NCBI RefSeq assembly: GCF_900100765.1
Contig: NZ_FNFO01000002.1
Location: forward strand, 496,001-560,000
Direction of reading: 5' to 3'
Source: Catalinimonas alkaloidigena
GTDB taxonomy: Bacteria > Bacteroidota > Bacteroidia > Cytophagales > Flexibacteraceae
DNA: 64,000 bases
Shown here: positions 6,012 through 12,713 of the stretch, one piece after another
Layout of the letters: the number at the start of each line of letters is the position of its first letter
Numbering within the stretch: the stretch's first letter is position 1
The notes under the pieces: generated by a model
What the model saw: the letters and a program-made list of their open reading frames with translations, nothing else
Databases searched by the model: none
What the model was told of the DNA's origin: nothing
Position numbers and translations under genes: made by a program

Positions 6012-8171
6012 ATGATCGAGACGGCTATTCACCGGTTGGTGGAACTTGTTCGCCAGGAAGAGGCACCGGCGATCGAGAAACCTGCCTTGTCCCCTACGTG
6101 CGATGTTCATTCGCTGGAGTCCCTTATTGCCGGTCTGGCAGAGCGGGCCGAGCAAGTGTCGTTGCGCATCCTGCGACACCACATACCGCGCACACTTTTC
6201 CGGCAGCACGTCGTGCGGGCCGATTTCCCGGTTGTGGCCTTCGTGCAGGAAGGCGAGCGGTGGGCGCCCGTCATTTTCACACACGATAAAGAAACACAGG
6301 CATTTCAGTACACCGACATCGGGGAGATGCCCCGCGCGGTCGATGCCGAACTGTTGCGGAACCTGCACGCCGACGACCACGATCAGGTGCTGTACCTGGC
6401 GGTGTTTGCGCACGAAACGCTGGTAAGCGAAGAAGATGCCTCGGGGGTGGCCAAAGTGCTGAAGCCGGTGCAGCGCTTTTACCGCATGCTGAAAGCGGAG
6501 CGGCGCGACATCACCTACATCTACATCTACGCCATTGCGGCGGGACTGATCACGCTTTCGTTGCCGCTGGGCATTCAGGCCATCATCGGTTTGATCTCGG
6601 GCGGGCTGGTGTTTAACTCGGTCGTGGTGTTGATTTCGCTCGTGATCGTGGGCGTTTTTCTGAGTGGCGCCTTGCAGGTGATGCAGCTGACGCTGGTCGA
6701 AATTTTGCAGCGCCGGTTGTTTGCCAAAGCGGCGTTCGAGTTTTCGTACCGGGTGCCGCGGGTAAAGCTGGAAGCGTGGAACGGCCACCATCCGCCGGAG
6801 CTGATGAACCGGTTCTTCGACGTGGTGACGGTGCAAAAGGGGTTGCCCAAGGTCCTGATCGAACTGACGGCTGCAGCCCTGCAAATTCTGTTCGGCCTGG
6901 TGCTGCTGGCCTTTTACCACCCCTTCTTCGTATTTTTTGGGTTGGCCCTGCTGCTCTACCTCTTTCTGATCTTTTACTTCACGGGCACCAAAGGCCTGGA
7001 AACCAGCCTGACGGAATCGAAGTACAAGTACCGCATTGCCTACTGGCTACAAGAGCTGGCCCGCAACGTGACGACGTTCAAGCTGACGGGGCGCAGCAAC
7101 CTGGCTTTGCAAAAAACCGATCATCTGCTCGACGGTTACCTGCGCTACCGCAAGAAGCACTTCAAGGTGTTGCTGACGCAGTTTATCAACATCGTCACGT
7201 TCAAGACCATCATCACAGGTAGCCTGCTGGTGCTGGGTACCCTGTTGGTCGTCGACCGGCAGATTACCCTCGGGCAGTTTGTGGCTTCGGAGGTGATCAT
7301 CGTGTTGATTCTGGGCGCGGTCGAAAAGACCATCCTCAGCATGGAGACGATCTACGACACGCTGACGGGCGTGGAAAAAATTGCGCAGGTGACCGATTTG
7401 CCTCTGGAACGCCTCAACGGCATTGGCCTGCCCTCTTCCAAGCAAGACACCACGCCGGGTCTGCAGTTGCAGGTGCGGAAACTCCGCTATACCGAAGAGC
7501 ACCAGCATGAAGTGTTGTTAGACAACCTATCGTTCGACCTGCAGCCCGGCGAGCGGCTGGCGCTGGCAGGTTTTGATTCGAGCGGGAAAGAAGCGCTGCT
7601 CCGCATCTTGGCGGGGGTGCAGACCCATTTTGAGGGCGACGTGCGCTTCGATGGCGTTTCGGCCCGCGACGTGTACCTGCCCGACCTCCGGCATTACGTG
7701 AGCAAGAACGTATCGCGCGACGACCTGTTTAACGGTACGCTGCTCGAAAACATCACCCTGGGCAAACCACAGATCAGCTATCAGGACGTGCGTTGGGCCA
7801 TGAGCCAGACCCGCCTCGACGAAGAGGTCGGCGCCCTGCCCGAGGGACTGGAAACCGAACTGTTGCCCGGCGGGCGGAACCTGCCCCCGGCAGTTGCCAG
7901 CCGCATCATGCTGGCGCGTTGCATTGTGTCGCGGCCCCGGCTCCTGATCCTGAACGATTTTCTTCAGGCCCTGGATCGGCGTTCCAAGCAGGAGATGATC
8001 GCCATGCTGACGGACTCGCGCCATCCGTGGTCGTTGTTGTGCGTGTCGAACGATCCGACGGTGCTGGCCGCGTGCGACCGGGTGCTGATCCTCCACGAAG
8101 GCGCGCTGGTGGCCGAGGGCACCTACGAAGCATTGCACCAACAACAGAATCCATTCTTACAACAACTGTAG
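6012..8171 (+). CDS. type I secretion-like ABC protein with degenerate ATPase domain
   Basis: A 719-residue HlyB-type half-transporter. Residues 1-165 form an N-terminal domain reminiscent of the C39-like domain of HlyB. Residues about 175-445 carry the membrane spans, and about 485-719 form the nucleotide-binding domain. Every ATPase motif is altered: Walker A reads GFDSSGKE (Glu for Ser/Thr), the Q-loop region reads VSKN, the LSGGQ signature is replaced by LPPAV, Walker B ends in ILND instead of DE, and the switch His is replaced in CVSNDPT. It is first of three genes with a HlyD-type adaptor and a TolC-type channel. As read, it cannot hydrolyse ATP normally; it may pair with an active subunit encoded elsewhere. 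Confidence 0.85.
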   Translation: MIETAIHRLVELVRQEEAPAIEKPALSPTCDVHSLESLIAGLAERAEQVSLRILRHHIPRTLFRQHVVRADFPVVAFVQEGERWAPVIFTHDKETQAFQYTDIGEMPRAVDAELLRNLHADDHDQVLYLAVFAHETLVSEEDASGVAKVLKPVQRFYRMLKAERRDITYIYIYAIAAGLITLSLPLGIQAIIGLISGGLVFNSVVVLISLVIVGVFLSGALQVMQLTLVEILQRRLFAKAAFEFSYRVPRVKLEAWNGHHPPELMNRFFDVVTVQKGLPKVLIELTAAALQILFGLVLLAFYHPFFVFFGLALLLYLFLIFYFTGTKGLETSLTESKYKYRIAYWLQELARNVTTFKLTGRSNLALQKTDHLLDGYLRYRKKHFKVLLTQFINIVTFKTIITGSLLVLGTLLVVDRQITLGQFVASEVIIVLILGAVEKTILSMETIYDTLTGVEKIAQVTDLPLERLNGIGLPSSKQDTTPGLQLQVRKLRYTEEHQHEVLLDNLSFDLQPGERLALAGFDSSGKEALLRILAGVQTHFEGDVRFDGVSARDVYLPDLRHYVSKNVSRDDLFNGTLLENITLGKPQISYQDVRWAMSQTRLDEEVGALPEGLETELLPGGRNLPPAVASRIMLARCIVSRPRLLILNDFLQALDRRSKQEMIAMLTDSRHPWSLLCVSNDPTVLAACDRVLILHEGALVAEGTYEALHQQQNPFLQQL

Positions 8172-8197
8172 CTCGTCATTTTCTAACGCAGTAACCC

Positions 8198-9565
8198 ATG
8201 TTAAATCTGTCAAAAGAGCGGGTAAACGATCCGCTGGCGCAGTACGAACTACAAACCATGAATACCCTGCATACCCCGCGGGTAGGGCGTGTGTTGGCGT
8301 ATTGGATCATCGGCATCTTCAGTCTGCTCATCATCTGTCTGTTTCTGCCCTGGCAGCAGAACATCACCGGCACGGGGCAGATTACGGCCCTCACCCCGCA
8401 AGACCGCCCGCAGATGGTGCCCGCGGTAATTGCAGGCCGTATTCTGGAATGGAAAGTGCGCGAAGGCCAGTTTGTGGAGGCGGGCGATACCCTGCTGCAG
8501 CTCGGCGAAGTAAAAACCGAATACTTTGATCCGGCACTACTGACCCGCACGGCCGAACAGCTGGACGCCAAGCAGGAGGCCATCGCGGCGACGCGCGAGC
8601 AGATCGAAGCGATGAACGTGAACCTGAACGCGCTGCAACAGGGGCTGGATATCAGTCTGGAAAAGGCCCGTAATAAAGTCACGCAGGTGCGGCTGAAGGT
8701 TGTGAGCGACAGCACCGACCTGGAAAACGAGCGTGTGCAGTACGCCATTGCCCAGCGGCAGTTCAACGGGTACGACAGCCTCTACCGCAAAGGGCTGGTG
8801 TCGCTGACGGCTTACGAAAGCCGCCGGCAGAAGCTCCAAGAAACCGCTGCCAAAGTGGTATCGCAGGAAAACAAGCTGCTGGAAACCCGGCAGGAACTGA
8901 TCAACGCGCGCCTGCAACTCACGTCGCTGCAGGCCGAATACCGCGATAAAATCTCGAAGACGGTGGCCGAACGCGCCGCCAAGGAAGTTTACCTAGCGGG
9001 TGCCCAAGCCGAATATAGCAAGTTGCGGAACTACTACGCTAACCTGGAGATTCGCCGAGATCAATACTTCGTGACGGCCCCGCAGACCGGCTACGTGGTG
9101 CGGGCGCTGAAAACGGGCGTCGGCGAAACGTTAAAAGAAGGCGATCCGGTGGTGACCATCATGCCCGATCAGCCCGACGTGGCGGCCGAAATCTACGTTC
9201 GCCCGATGGACGTTCCCCTGTTGCACATTGGCAACCCGGTGCGGCTGGAGTTCGACGGCTGGCCGGCGCTTCAATTCTCGGGCTGGCCGAGTGTGGCCGT
9301 CGGTACCTTTGGCGGTCGCGTTGCCGTAATCGATTATGTGAACAGTGCGAATGGGAAGTATCGGGTGCTGGTCACGCCGGACCCGAACGAAGAGCCCTGG
9401 CCGGCGCAGTTGCGCCAGGGATCGGGCGTATACGGATGGGCCATGCTGAACGAAGTGCCCATCTGGTACGAACTCTGGCGGCAGCTGAACGGCTTCCCGC
9501 CCAGCCTGGAAAATATGCCCGACGCCAAAACCGCAGCCGTAGAGAAAACCCCGACCGAGAAATGA
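8198..9565 (+). CDS. HlyD-family periplasmic adaptor (membrane fusion protein)
   Basis: 455 residues. A short cytoplasmic start is followed by one membrane anchor (AYWIIGIFSLLIICLFLPW, about 34-52), a biotinyl-lipoyl half-motif (IAGRILEWKVREGQFVEAGDTLLQL), a long alpha-helical coiled-coil hairpin at about 110-290, the second lipoyl half (APQTGYVVRALKTGVGETLKEGDPV) and a beta-barrel C-terminus. Such adaptors bridge an inner-membrane ABC protein to a TolC channel. It follows the ABC gene by 26 bases and overlaps tolC by ATGA. Confidence 0.93.
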   Translation: MLNLSKERVNDPLAQYELQTMNTLHTPRVGRVLAYWIIGIFSLLIICLFLPWQQNITGTGQITALTPQDRPQMVPAVIAGRILEWKVREGQFVEAGDTLLQLGEVKTEYFDPALLTRTAEQLDAKQEAIAATREQIEAMNVNLNALQQGLDISLEKARNKVTQVRLKVVSDSTDLENERVQYAIAQRQFNGYDSLYRKGLVSLTAYESRRQKLQETAAKVVSQENKLLETRQELINARLQLTSLQAEYRDKISKTVAERAAKEVYLAGAQAEYSKLRNYYANLEIRRDQYFVTAPQTGYVVRALKTGVGETLKEGDPVVTIMPDQPDVAAEIYVRPMDVPLLHIGNPVRLEFDGWPALQFSGWPSVAVGTFGGRVAVIDYVNSANGKYRVLVTPDPNEEPWPAQLRQGSGVYGWAMLNEVPIWYELWRQLNGFPPSLENMPDAKTAAVEKTPTEK

Positions 9566-11010
9566 GGTACCTGAAATCACTTGTCGGCAATTGTGGGGTG
9601 CGGATTGTGCTCTGGCTCGTGCTGACCTTGCCCGCCGCCCGGGCGCAGGACAGCACGATTCAGTTCACCCTGCAGGATTTGTACGGGCTGATGCGCGAGA
9701 CGCACCCGGTCGTACGTCAGGCGGAGCTTTATCAGGACATTGCCGACGCGGAAGTGCGTCAGGCGCGGGGCAACTTCGATCCCAAGGCCATTGCTTCGTA
9801 TCAGCGGAAAGAATTCGGCGAGAAGACCTACTACAACAACTGGAACAGCTACCTGAAGGTACCCGTATGGCCGGGCGGCATCGAGTTGCAGGCCGGCTAC
9901 GAGCGGGCCATCGGCAGTTACGTAAACGACGAGACGCAAACTCCGGCGGCAGGGTTGGCGTACGCGGGCGTGGTGGTGCCACTCGGGCAGGGCATGTTTC
10001 TGGACCAGCGCCGGGCCACCTTGCGCCAGGCCCAGATTTACCAGACCATGGCGGCGGCCGAGCGGCAAAAGCTGCTGAACAAGATTTTCTGGTCTGCCAC
10101 CAAAGATTATTACGACTGGTTTCTGGCCGTGCGGCAGGTTGAACTGTTGCAGGAAAGCATCGGGCTGGCGCAGGCGCTCTACGAGGCCACGCGCGAGCGT
10201 GCGCGGTTCGGCGACCTGGCACCGATCGACACGGTAGAAGCGAAAATCAACCTGCAGAGTCGCCAGCTGCAGTGGCAACAGGCTCAACTGGCTGTGCAGA
10301 ATGCACGGAATCTGCTCTCGACGTACTTGTGGGACGAGGGGGGGCAACCCGTGGTGCTGGACGGAGCGCTCCGGCCCGATGCGTTTCGCCGCGAGTCCTA
10401 CACCGCCGTTCTGCTCGACAGCCTGCTCGATGTTGCTCAGCGCCAGCATCCCGAACTGCTTAAACTCAGCGGGAAGGTAGATCAGCTGCAAATCGACCAG
10501 CGTTGGTCGCGCGAGCAACTCAAACCCAAACTGGACCTGAAACTCAATTTGTTGAGCGCAACCCCCCACGTGGGCGATGACCTGAGCTATGCCTTCTTTT
10601 CGAACAACTACCGCGTAGGGGTCGACTTTTCATTTCCGCTTTTTCTACGGAAAGAACGCGGGAAACTCCAGGCCGTCACGGCCAAGGTAAAACAGGCGGG
10701 CTGGGAGCGGCAGTACCTGGCGCGCTCCATCGACAATGCCCTGCGCAATGCCTGGAACGAAGTGCTGACGTACGAAAACCTGCTGGTGCAGCAGACCGAC
10801 ATGGTCAACAACTACCGGCAGTTGCGCGACGGTGAATTGGAGAAGTTCGAGAACGGCGAAAGTTCGCTGTTCCTGATCAACTCGCGGGAAACCAAACTGC
10901 TGGAGGCCGAAACCAAGCTGGCCGAATTGCAGATCAAGTACGGAAAAGCCTACGCACAATTGTTTGCGGAAGCGGGCATTTTGGGGAACGAGCCGCTGGC
11001 CGATCGCTAG
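9562..11010 (+). CDS. TolC-family outer-membrane efflux protein
   Basis: 482 residues from the ATG at 9562, which overlaps the adaptor stop as ATGA and opens a signal peptide ending LPAARAQ. The mature protein shows the TolC pattern of long helices (EATRERARFGDLAPIDTVEAKINLQSRQ region and the second repeat LLEAETKLAELQIKYGKAYAQLF). It should form the outer-membrane channel for the upstream ABC/HlyD pair. An in-frame Met at 9436 was rejected because it lies inside hlyD and would block the signal peptide. Confidence 0.93.
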   Translation: MRYLKSLVGNCGVRIVLWLVLTLPAARAQDSTIQFTLQDLYGLMRETHPVVRQAELYQDIADAEVRQARGNFDPKAIASYQRKEFGEKTYYNNWNSYLKVPVWPGGIELQAGYERAIGSYVNDETQTPAAGLAYAGVVVPLGQGMFLDQRRATLRQAQIYQTMAAAERQKLLNKIFWSATKDYYDWFLAVRQVELLQESIGLAQALYEATRERARFGDLAPIDTVEAKINLQSRQLQWQQAQLAVQNARNLLSTYLWDEGGQPVVLDGALRPDAFRRESYTAVLLDSLLDVAQRQHPELLKLSGKVDQLQIDQRWSREQLKPKLDLKLNLLSATPHVGDDLSYAFFSNNYRVGVDFSFPLFLRKERGKLQAVTAKVKQAGWERQYLARSIDNALRNAWNEVLTYENLLVQQTDMVNNYRQLRDGELEKFENGESSLFLINSRETKLLEAETKLAELQIKYGKAYAQLFAEAGILGNEPLADR

Positions 11011-11021
11011 CCAGCTCGGAA

Positions 11022-12713
11022 TTACTTTTTGCAGTCGCGGATCATCTTCTGGAGCGTAGCCACCATGGTGCGGCCGGTTTCAATGTCGGGCGCGGTGATG
11101 GAAAGACTACTCACGTAGCTAACCTTGTCGCCGTTTTCGTAATTCTTGATGATCTTCTCGTTATATTTGGTCGGTGCGACCACGCTCACGGTCTTGCTTT
11201 TTACACTCAGACCGACCTTGTCGGGATCGAGGTCGTACACATTAAACTCGTAGAGGTTTTCTTTGACCTTTTTGCCGTCGTCTTCGCGGGTGGCAAAACT
11301 CATCTTGCAATTATCGCCTTCGCGGAGTTCCAGTTTCTGAGTCATGCCCAGGGCGCGTTCGTCCAGGCCTGCCAGGGTGGCGCTCAACCAGCTCAGATCC
11401 TGCGCCTGGCCGTCTTTCCGCAGGTTGCCGATGCAGTAGACCAACAGGTGCTCTAGCTGCTTGGCGGTCGGCAGGTCAGGTACATAAAAGGCTACGCTGC
11501 TGGTGTAGTTCTGCCGCTCGCCATCTTCAAAAACCCCGACGAACGACTGCTTGTTGGTGGTAGTGGCCGACACGGTGAACGTAAGCTTGTTGACGTCGAT
11601 GGAGACGGACTTTTCGTTCAGATCACCGAAGTTGAAAACAAACTTTTCTTCTTCACTTTTTTTCTCGTCGGTAGTCGTCCGGATGTATGTCGCCACGGCA
11701 TCACCGTCGAACGATTGTTCGTAGCTGGTTGTCCCCACCTTAAAACTCTGGATCTGGTTTTTGAGATGAGTTAGTCCTTCGGCGGTCGAAGTGGGTTGAA
11801 TCAACAGTTTTTCGGAGGCGGCCCGTGCCAGCGGAATCAGGTCGCGGAGGCCCTGCACCAGCACCTGGGCCTGGTCGGCGTCGGCGGCGTAGAGGCTGAT
11901 CTCGTCGTCGAAGCCTTTGAGTTCGCCGCCTTCTTCCCGGCGCACGAATTTCTTGTTCTGCCGGATGTTGGCTTTCACGGAAATCAGTTTTCCGGATACC
12001 TTCATCGTAACCGAGGGTTCGTGCAAGTCGCCGAAGTTCCATTCGTAGCGCTCTTCGTCTTCCAGGCCTTTGCTGGTGGACTTTTGTCGGGTCAGCACAC
12101 CGCGCGCTGCGTGTCCCTCTTCCGGCGAAAGCGCTTGTTTGTAAGTAGCGTCGCCGGCCTCGACGTTTTGCACCTGGTCGGTGATCCACTGCCGGAGTGG
12201 TGCCAGCTCGGTCGGAATCGCGATGGTGCTTTTCCAGGCCTCTTCGGCCAGCGGAATGGCCGCTTTGAGCGCCTCTTCGATGGCGCGGGCGTTGTCGACG
12301 TCGGTGCAGTACAGCTCCAGTTCATCGGTAAAGCCGTCGAGTTCGCCGTCTTCGTACTCTTTGATGACGGGCTGCCCACCCGAGCGGGCGCTGATGCGCA
12401 TCAATCCTTGCGAGGTGTTGCGGCGCACCAGATTCTTGTCCATCAGCCCCAGATTGAATACGTACCGTTGCTGACTTTCTTTGCCTTTTTTGTCGATCTC
12501 TTTGCGTGTGAGTTCCAGCAGATAGGGTTTGTCGGCCGAAAAACTCAACGCTTGTTCGTAGGTGTTTTTATCGGTCGCGACCTCTTTTACCTGCTGTTGC
12601 AAGGTGGCCAGCGGTTCGAGCAGCGGGTGCTGCGCCTGTGTTGTGGTCGAGATCAGAAGGGCCCAGACAAGCGCAGAGGCCAGGGCAGCGAAACGTGTAC
12701 GCGAAAATGCCAT
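11022..12713 (-). CDS. secreted protein of four tandem repeats, function unknown
   Basis: 563 residues with an N-terminal signal peptide (ALVWALLISTTTQAQ). The rest consists of four diverged repeats of about 130-140 residues, at roughly 33-160, 170-300, 310-435 and 440-563. Each has a strand motif (YVFNLG, YEWNFGDL, FVFNFGDL, YEFNVYDL at 84, 223, 358, 488) and a later motif (EYEDGELDGF, REEGGELKGF, VFEDGERQNY, NYENGDKVSY at about 119, 259, 394, 524), then a helix ending in a hydrophobic stretch. No family is recognised. It is convergent with tolC, 11 bases away. It is probably periplasmic or surface-exposed. Confidence 0.85.
   Translation of the reverse strand: MAFSRTRFAALASALVWALLISTTTQAQHPLLEPLATLQQQVKEVATDKNTYEQALSFSADKPYLLELTRKEIDKKGKESQQRYVFNLGLMDKNLVRRNTSQGLMRISARSGGQPVIKEYEDGELDGFTDELELYCTDVDNARAIEEALKAAIPLAEEAWKSTIAIPTELAPLRQWITDQVQNVEAGDATYKQALSPEEGHAARGVLTRQKSTSKGLEDEERYEWNFGDLHEPSVTMKVSGKLISVKANIRQNKKFVRREEGGELKGFDDEISLYAADADQAQVLVQGLRDLIPLARAASEKLLIQPTSTAEGLTHLKNQIQSFKVGTTSYEQSFDGDAVATYIRTTTDEKKSEEEKFVFNFGDLNEKSVSIDVNKLTFTVSATTTNKQSFVGVFEDGERQNYTSSVAFYVPDLPTAKQLEHLLVYCIGNLRKDGQAQDLSWLSATLAGLDERALGMTQKLELREGDNCKMSFATREDDGKKVKENLYEFNVYDLDPDKVGLSVKSKTVSVVAPTKYNEKIIKNYENGDKVSYVSSLSITAPDIETGRTMVATLQKMIRDCKK

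Follow-up and report, generated by a model that had tools for sequence, protein, structure and literature searches.

What can drive an exporter of the ATP-binding cassette (ABC) class, which is defined by ATP hydrolysis, once its ATPase motifs have been lost? The question is raised by a three-gene operon at positions 6012-11010 of the window, by which we mean the whole 64,000-nucleotide stretch of the 7.1-Mb Catalinimonas alkaloidigena genome analysed here. Tightly packed on the + strand, the operon encodes a protein with the ABC-exporter fold, then an HlyD adaptor, then a TolC channel: 26 nucleotides separate the ABC stop from the HlyD start, the TolC start overlaps the HlyD stop (ATGA), and Pfam matches above cut-off are present for ABC_membrane, ABC_tran, HlyD_3 and OEP. 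PF00664 scores above its cut-off in the ABC protein, which assigns it the type IV exporter transmembrane fold, and HlyD and TolC share an operon with the ABC gene as in type I secretion. All of this agrees with a first-pass annotation that described a tightly packed type I secretion-like operon with HlyD and TolC. Our main new result comes from beyond the window, where sequence comparisons argue strongly for a natural clade of this exporter family that is devoid of a nucleotide-binding domain (NBD), and we suggest that the pump may now be driven by something other than an ATPase of its own.

The first-pass annotation also held that every ATPase motif of the ABC subunit is changed. Motifs were read by alignment with five further exporters encoded in this genome, which revealed that the Q-loop glutamine is replaced by S568, the LSGGQ signature by LPPAV (624-628), the Walker B aspartate and glutamate by N648 and D649, and the switch histidine by N680. 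Walker A (GFDSSGKE) retains G520, G525 and K526 and carries E527 in place of the serine/threonine, so that the GxxxxGK core is the sole surviving ATPase motif in the window NBD. The alignment of all motifs upholds the earlier statement except that the P-loop lysine K526 survives; likewise, the Q-loop had been placed at VSKN, a few residues upstream of the aligned position, but there is no glutamine either way. In the control columns, 12 exporters encoded by other genomes in the phylum have the Q-loop glutamine, the Walker B glutamate and the switch histidine in 12/12 cases, and the five own-genome exporters have glutamine in 5/5, histidine in 5/5 and glutamate in 4/5 (one has D); with canonical residues in the control exporters, the motif columns are therefore sound. 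Judged by Walker A, Q-loop, signature, Walker B and switch histidine together, the window ABC protein is predicted not to be a competent ATPase. Elsewhere in the genome (C3:645-649 kb), two adjoining same-strand exporter genes (L002 and L004), one of which has D where the Walker B glutamate is expected, have the look of a conventional heterodimer containing a single degenerate site, unconnected with the HlyD/TolC operon.

Among relatives of the window protein, 51 loci in 50 genomes of 8 genera are without an NBD. A survey of 77 genomes, picked for mid-range scores and for full-length comparisons, contributed 46 of these loci (45 genomes), a phylum search three and a further search two. In the survey's 46 loci the match to the query is confined to a span that begins at residue 130-154 and ends at residue 465-471, in frames of 334-394 residues, and the ABC proteins of the 46 flanked loci (329-374 residues) are essentially the transmembrane domain (TMD) alone. 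Three families are firm (f10, f12 and f23), and the fourth, f17, comes from a single metagenome-assembled genome (G026, 9.8-kb contig) that could be a binning error; four NBD-less genomes consist of a single contig (G037, G207, G222 and G280). HlyD and TolC follow downstream on the same strand in 46/46 long-flank loci and in 2/2 more (48/48), the loci of G091, G104 and G117 lying outside the 48 read with flanks. The HlyD start minus the ABC end amounts to -40 to +119, and there is therefore no room for an NBD between the two genes.

In TMD trees the 32 NBD-less rows form one clade with a Shimodaira-Hasegawa-like approximate likelihood-ratio test (SH-aLRT) support of 100, or 99 with other outgroups, nested among full-length degenerate proteins, with those from f10 and Arcicella as neighbours. 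The first tree kept 130/188 rows at 88% identity, rows short of the TMD span and near-identical rows having been dropped, and the second held 74 family rows and 8/12 outgroups, with L045, L130 and rows of >76% identity dropped; the outgroup exporters are very distant (root branches 3.6 and 4.5, with a long-branch risk), and the root is not fixed by the tree. One genus of f12 (g17) and one of f23 (g130) contain both NBD-less and full forms, as do single genomes of f10 (G078, G139), suggesting transfer between lineages. Pairs of NBD-less sequences are under purifying selection, the ratio of nonsynonymous to synonymous substitution rates (dN/dS) being 0.037-0.195 in 14 pairs. Because the NBD-less clade keeps the TMD under purifying selection, along with the HlyD and TolC genes, an ATPase of its own is apparently dispensable in this HlyD/TolC system. 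Sub-clades of the family are without either the N-terminal domain or the NBD. A 353-residue frame in G881, considered as a second independent NBD loss, lies on a contig that ends 77 bases past the match and provides no evidence for one. Among the titles and opening lines of abstracts listed from the open-access literature, we recognised none that describes this family or any exporter naturally lacking an NBD.

The full-length members show how widespread the degeneration is. Relatives are present in 11/11 genomes of the window's family, its own included (E <= 1e-40), in 225/291 genomes of its order (E <= 1e-35) and in 115/395 genomes of its phylum (E <= 1e-30), 97 of the latter with E <= 1e-80; among the matches listed in the phylum search, the E-values leave a gap from 1e-87 to 1e-38. 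With the window protein counted, the motif alignment comprises 121 distinct rows that bear an NBD (the contig-cut L046 was dropped), and 105 of them are degenerate: the Walker A lysine is present in 101, the serine/threonine in 64, the Q-loop glutamine in 5, the Walker B aspartate in 16 and glutamate in 9, and the switch histidine in 0, with the complete K/Q/D/E/H set in 0/105. The 105 include L205 and L206, which are pieces of broken genes, as well as a few rows from outside the class (f43, f52 and f70). The remaining 16 rows, all from out-of-class genomes (L125, L127-L132, L137 and L217-L224), have a half-way NBD with lysine in 16, serine/threonine in 16, aspartate in 16, glutamate in 15 and histidine in 11, the Q-loop glutamine being absent in 16/16, so that even the best-preserved family rows are without it; this group was taken from the tree (15 rows in one clade, SH-aLRT 100), L137, a 489-residue piece, being added by its motifs. 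The conserved dead ATPase postulated in the first-pass annotation is thus borne out, one clade having even discarded the domain; the degeneracy is fixed among the 105 degenerate rows examined, and the rows examined contain no close relative with intact motifs.

Sequence divergence tells the same two-part proteins apart from ordinary exporters. Canonical exporters have a higher identity in the NBD than in the TMD in 56/66 pairs (means 0.43 vs 0.30), compared to 0/3081 pairs in the degenerate group (NBD 0.34, TMD 0.53; L061 left out) and 28/105 pairs in the out-of-class group; the most similar canonical pairs often have the higher identity in the TMD, so distant pairs show the contrast best. The degenerate NBD is under purifying selection, with Nei-Gojobori dN/dS values of 0.017-0.541 in 27/38 computable pairs (three of the 38 from the out-of-class group of 16, and many dS near saturation), and dN is higher in the NBD than in the TMD in 37/38 pairs. 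Of 164 distinct ABC rows whose sequence extends 1.4 kb or more downstream, 148 have HlyD as the next gene. Together, the alignments argue strongly that the NBD is catalytically degenerate, as predicted from its motifs, yet kept under selection where present.

Several loci depart from the usual arrangement. In L205 (genome G160) the ABC gene is split between two frames and HlyD is in pieces too, and in L206 (genome G176) the parts of the ABC gene lie ~1.8 kb apart with other frames between, HlyD and TolC then following. Full-length degenerate ABC genes (L050, L052, L054, L057, L059 and L060, including Raineya and Thermoflexibacter) have no HlyD/TolC match in ~5.9 kb downstream, and their subunits may act alone or with distant partners. 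Family members also reside on large plasmids of Persicobacter and Aureibacter (NZ_AP025293.1, NZ_AP025306.1), where the Aureibacter copy is followed by HlyD and TolC and bears the annotation 'ABC transporter ATP-binding protein'.

We then compared mean pairwise identities of TMD segments between the 32 NBD-less rows and 38 full-length rows, the latter hand-picked among loci of the window's order and related named ones. Identity in the coupling helix of intracellular loop 2 (ICL2) is 0.38 in NBD-less versus 0.64 in full rows, and for the whole of ICL2 it is 0.52 versus 0.64. The other values (NBD-less/full) are 0.72/0.62 for transmembrane helix 1 (TM1), 0.63/0.56 for TM2, 0.73/0.68 for ICL1, 0.60/0.65 for TM3, 0.43/0.47 for TM4, 0.54/0.58 for TM5 and 0.72/0.70 for TM6, and no tabulated segment except the coupling helix differs by >0.12. 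In the NBD-less clade the coupling-helix segment, which would dock an NBD, has thus lost most of its conservation; F356, for example, is F in 78/80 full rows and in 6/32 NBD-less rows (Y in 12). Within TM6, the E427 position is acidic (E or D) in 127/127 family rows and in none of 15 other exporters, and K439 is K in 124/127 family rows and in 2/15 other exporters; H303 is H in 123/127 family rows. In an alignment with E. coli MsbA, E427 corresponds to M291, a placement made rough by a nearby gap. We regard E427 and K439 as candidate ion-coupling residues, as a lead only.

A heterodimer with an active subunit encoded elsewhere had been put forward to account for the dead ATPase, and the window genome contains five other PF00664 proteins. 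All are frames of 597-631 residues, and there is no HlyB-sized half-transporter or exporter among them. Across one genus, PF00664 matches per genome (weak and partial matches included) number 6-12 in nine NBD-less genomes, 6-9 in eight full genomes and 7 in the one with neither form, and no PF00664 gene visibly accompanies the NBD-less form in these 18 genomes. A split-off family NBD acting in trans was not found among the matches listed for the 17/50 NBD-less genomes searched: with a sister NBD (L076) as query, the best-scoring matches were 24-30% identical and lay within exporter frames of 595-650 residues, compared to matches of 100, 55 and 43% in three full-length control genomes. Neither a partner with an intact site inside the operon nor a PF00664 gene tracking the system was detected. 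The size of the other exporter frames, the PF00664 counts and the failure to find a family NBD in trans in the 17 genomes searched all disfavour the heterodimer.

The overall fold of the window protein is that of an exporter. Its AlphaFold monomer has a predicted local distance difference test score (pLDDT) of 75.3 and a predicted template modelling score of 0.52, and approximately residues 150-719 of the model match type IV exporters such as MsbA (7ph3, Z 29.8, root-mean-square deviation [rmsd] 3.0, 559 aligned) and the HlyB-HlyD structure 8dck (Z 28.7, rmsd 2.8, 561 aligned). The LssB model TIGR03375 scores 155.8 bits over residues 25-712, far under its cut-off of 693.1, and the top NCBIfam model is the NHLP bacteriocin exporter TIGR03796 with 189.4 bits (cut-off 853.3). 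Folded alone, the N-terminal domain reaches a pLDDT of 82.3, and VIA-align puts C39 domains first: the ComA peptidase (Z 9.9), PCAT1 (9.6) and HlyB 7sgr (9.4), with the C39-like domain 3zua at Z 8.8 (rmsd 3.4, 111 aligned). The domain has no Pfam match and no profile match to the one C39 domain tested, and Foldseek on its model gave a best E of only 5e-3. Residue 1 of the model aligns to peptidase residues 17-21, which we take to be where the catalytic cysteine of C39 peptidases stands, and cysteine is absent from helix 1. The HlyB-like N-terminal domain of the first-pass annotation therefore stands by fold, as seen with VIA-align, but not by sequence, and Foldseek is weak; the modelled fold, and only the fold, supports a HlyB-like, non-peptidase domain.

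Among loci with 1 kb or more of upstream sequence, a TetR-family regulator lies within the stretch of 61/132 full-length and 14/49 NBD-less ones (counts that include some duplicate loci of one genome), and Pfam TetR_N matched 5/5 regulators submitted; a TetR-type neighbour is common, not universal. The RTX (repeats-in-toxin) model PF00353 has no match in the window genome at E <= 0.001, and 2/14 control genomes were positive. Because of the TetR-type neighbour and the lack of an RTX protein match, we infer that the operon resembles efflux more than protein secretion, a small molecule being a likelier cargo than an RTX protein. The window genome holds a relative of the TetR-type regulator elsewhere (46% identity; L241 6147-6926, C3:387664-388320), which by eye adjoins mazG-like and Fur-like genes, with no transporter recognised by eye among the adjoining frames. 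In two distant lineages a carbonic-anhydrase gene is directly upstream of the operon (L134 4211-4843, by Pfam Pro_CA; L217 987-1742, by eye). Next to the operon in the window, 11022-12713 (-) encodes a 563-residue protein with, by eye, approximately four repeats of ~130 residues, without a Pfam match over cut-off or an NCBIfam match.

Table 1. Coordinates of the operon and of the domains and motifs of its ABC subunit, in window positions.
Feature	Position	Strand	Basis
ABC-exporter-fold inner-membrane subunit, degenerate NBD, 719 aa	6012..8171	+	Pfam, NCBIfam, motif alignment, AlphaFold, structure match
N-terminal C39-like (non-peptidase) domain, residues 1-150	6012..6461	+	fold match only, Foldseek weak; sequence tests negative
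Transmembrane domain, ~residues 160-462, part kept in NBD-less clade	6489..7397	+	alignment, AlphaFold model
ICL2 coupling-helix region, residues 347-362	7050..7097	+	placed by analogy with known exporters; segment identities
E427 in TM6, candidate ion-coupling residue (lead only)	7290..7292	+	E/D in 127/127 family rows
Degenerate nucleotide-binding domain, ~residues 485-719	7464..8168	+	Pfam, alignment, structure match
Walker A GFDSSGKE, residues 520-527	7569..7592	+	alignment
Q-loop position S568	7713..7715	+	alignment
Signature position LPPAV, 624-628	7881..7895	+	alignment
Walker B LLILND, 644-649	7941..7958	+	alignment
Switch position N680	8049..8051	+	alignment
HlyD-family periplasmic adaptor, 455 aa	8198..9565	+	Pfam/NCBIfam
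TolC/OEP-family outer-membrane channel, 482 aa	9562..11010	+	Pfam/NCBIfam

What drives the pump and what it carries we can conclude only weakly. The reading that we prefer, holding it at close to even confidence, is that of a tripartite exporter whose inner-membrane subunit would no longer use an ATPase of its own and would instead run on an ion gradient. An inner-membrane homodimer of the ABC-exporter fold would combine with the HlyD adaptor and the TolC channel into a three-part envelope exporter, in which the six-helix domain would act as a secondary-active exporter using an ion gradient and pass cargo to HlyD/TolC. The TM6 acid E427 and the TM6 lysine K439 would be the candidates for coupling ions, and a window-type dead NBD with its GxxxxGK would serve as a docked structural part that perhaps still binds nucleotide. 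An evolutionary series from an ATP-driven to an ion-driven exporter, with Q-loop and signature lost at the outset, then Walker B and switch, then the NBD, is conceivable at somewhat below even confidence, the order of the early losses being read from motif states only.

Several points weigh against an ion-driven subunit. Ion coupling is argued by analogy and from one conserved TM6 acid, whose depth in the membrane was judged only from the helix limits of the AlphaFold monomer, a model of middling quality. Retention of the Walker A lysine in nearly all degenerate rows (101/105) hints at a continuing role for nucleotide in proteins that have the NBD. The NBD-less clade retains a highly conserved ICL1, a loop that in known exporters also contacts the NBDs, and a basic residue at position 357 (R in 30 and K in 1 of 32 rows); because of these two features a cytoplasmic contact may persist, and some cytoplasmic partner of the NBD-less protein is possible. 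From the literature, full-length MsbA outperformed the truncated membrane domain (MsbA-MD) in PMC4979069, MsbA-MD failed to rescue lipid transport in cells according to PMC8660845, and ATP hydrolysis has been termed compulsory for ethidium transport by LmrA (PMC6155054).

Among other explanations, the ABC-fold dimer could be a passive conduit or scaffold, an inner-membrane platform or gated pore that holds HlyD and TolC in place without an energised step, cargo entering from the periplasm or moving downhill. The dispensability of the NBD in one clade and the retention of the partner genes in 46/46 NBD-less loci would fit this, but the strong conservation of the TMD, TM6 included (0.72 in NBD-less rows), and the charged TM6 residues go beyond a bare anchor, although not decisively, and we consider such a conduit unlikely while taking it seriously. 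It is less probable still that the subunit borrows an ATPase, by pairing with another half-exporter or by recruiting a generic NBD in trans, and so remains ATP-driven. Degenerate sites are common in heterodimeric exporters (PMC7756269), several other PF00664 proteins are present in 18/18 genomes compared and in the window's own, the PF00664 maximum is 12 in NBD-less versus 9 in full genomes (both centre on 8), and ICL1 is conserved in the NBD-less clade; against this stand the segment for docking a partner, which lost conservation, the PF00664 genes, none of which visibly tracks the NBD-less form, and the sister-NBD matches in 17 NBD-less genomes, which are so much poorer than those of the controls.

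That the degenerate NBD hydrolyses ATP slowly by a non-canonical route appears to us very improbable: GxxxxGK is retained in most rows, and the 16 out-of-class rows all keep Walker A, 15 of them also having the Walker B glutamate and 11 the switch histidine, but the window protein is devoid of the Q-loop glutamine, both Walker B acids and the histidine, and in the NBD-less clade hydrolysis by an own NBD is needless. Decay of a single copy is ruled out by the similar substitutions across 105 rows and by purifying selection. The broader notion of the operon as a pseudogene on its way out could draw on at least two relatives with a broken ABC gene (L205, L206) and on the faster amino-acid change of the NBD, but it is scarcely credible in view of like substitutions across the family, purifying selection on both parts and the conserved operon and regulator.

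The family bears on how such operons are understood. In the open-access literature found, pumping on an ion gradient by ABC membrane domains so far rests on MsbA, LmrA and truncated laboratory constructs. A natural family that has dropped its NBD and kept the rest of the pump would make the question of ion-gradient drive directly testable, with ready comparisons between members whose NBD is partly preserved, dead or absent, and HlyD/TolC operons of Bacteroidota in which the leading gene carries the label 'ABC transporter ATP-binding protein' may not be ATP-driven.

The window protein resembles the type I secretion ABC subunits HlyB and LssB in its C39-like N-terminal domain (by fold), its type IV TMD and its adjacent HlyD and TolC, but differs from them in scoring under the LssB cut-off, in its lost catalytic residues, in the lack of an RTX match and in having sub-clades without the N-terminal domain or the NBD. 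EmrAB-TolC, a major facilitator superfamily (MFS) pump with an HlyD-type adaptor, has an ion-driven inner-membrane subunit feeding that adaptor and TolC, as proposed here, a likeness of plan only, since the inner subunit is an MFS protein there and has the ABC-exporter fold here. Solitary BioY biotin transporters that work without their ATPase are a further parallel. Heterodimeric ABC exporters, which with their one degenerate site are reviewed in PMC7756269, similarly keep a degenerate nucleotide site under selection; they retain a second, competent site, whereas no intact partner gene accompanies the operon here and a homodimer would have two dead sites. With MsbA and LmrA the protein shares the type IV exporter TMD (7ph3, Z 29.8), and MsbA engineered to be without its NBD carries out delta-pH-dependent transport of ethidium and chloramphenicol, as reported in PMC4979069. 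MsbA-MD and LmrA-MD are, however, laboratory truncations of ATP-driven pumps, whereas in the family described here the loss is natural, clade-wide and linked to HlyD and TolC.

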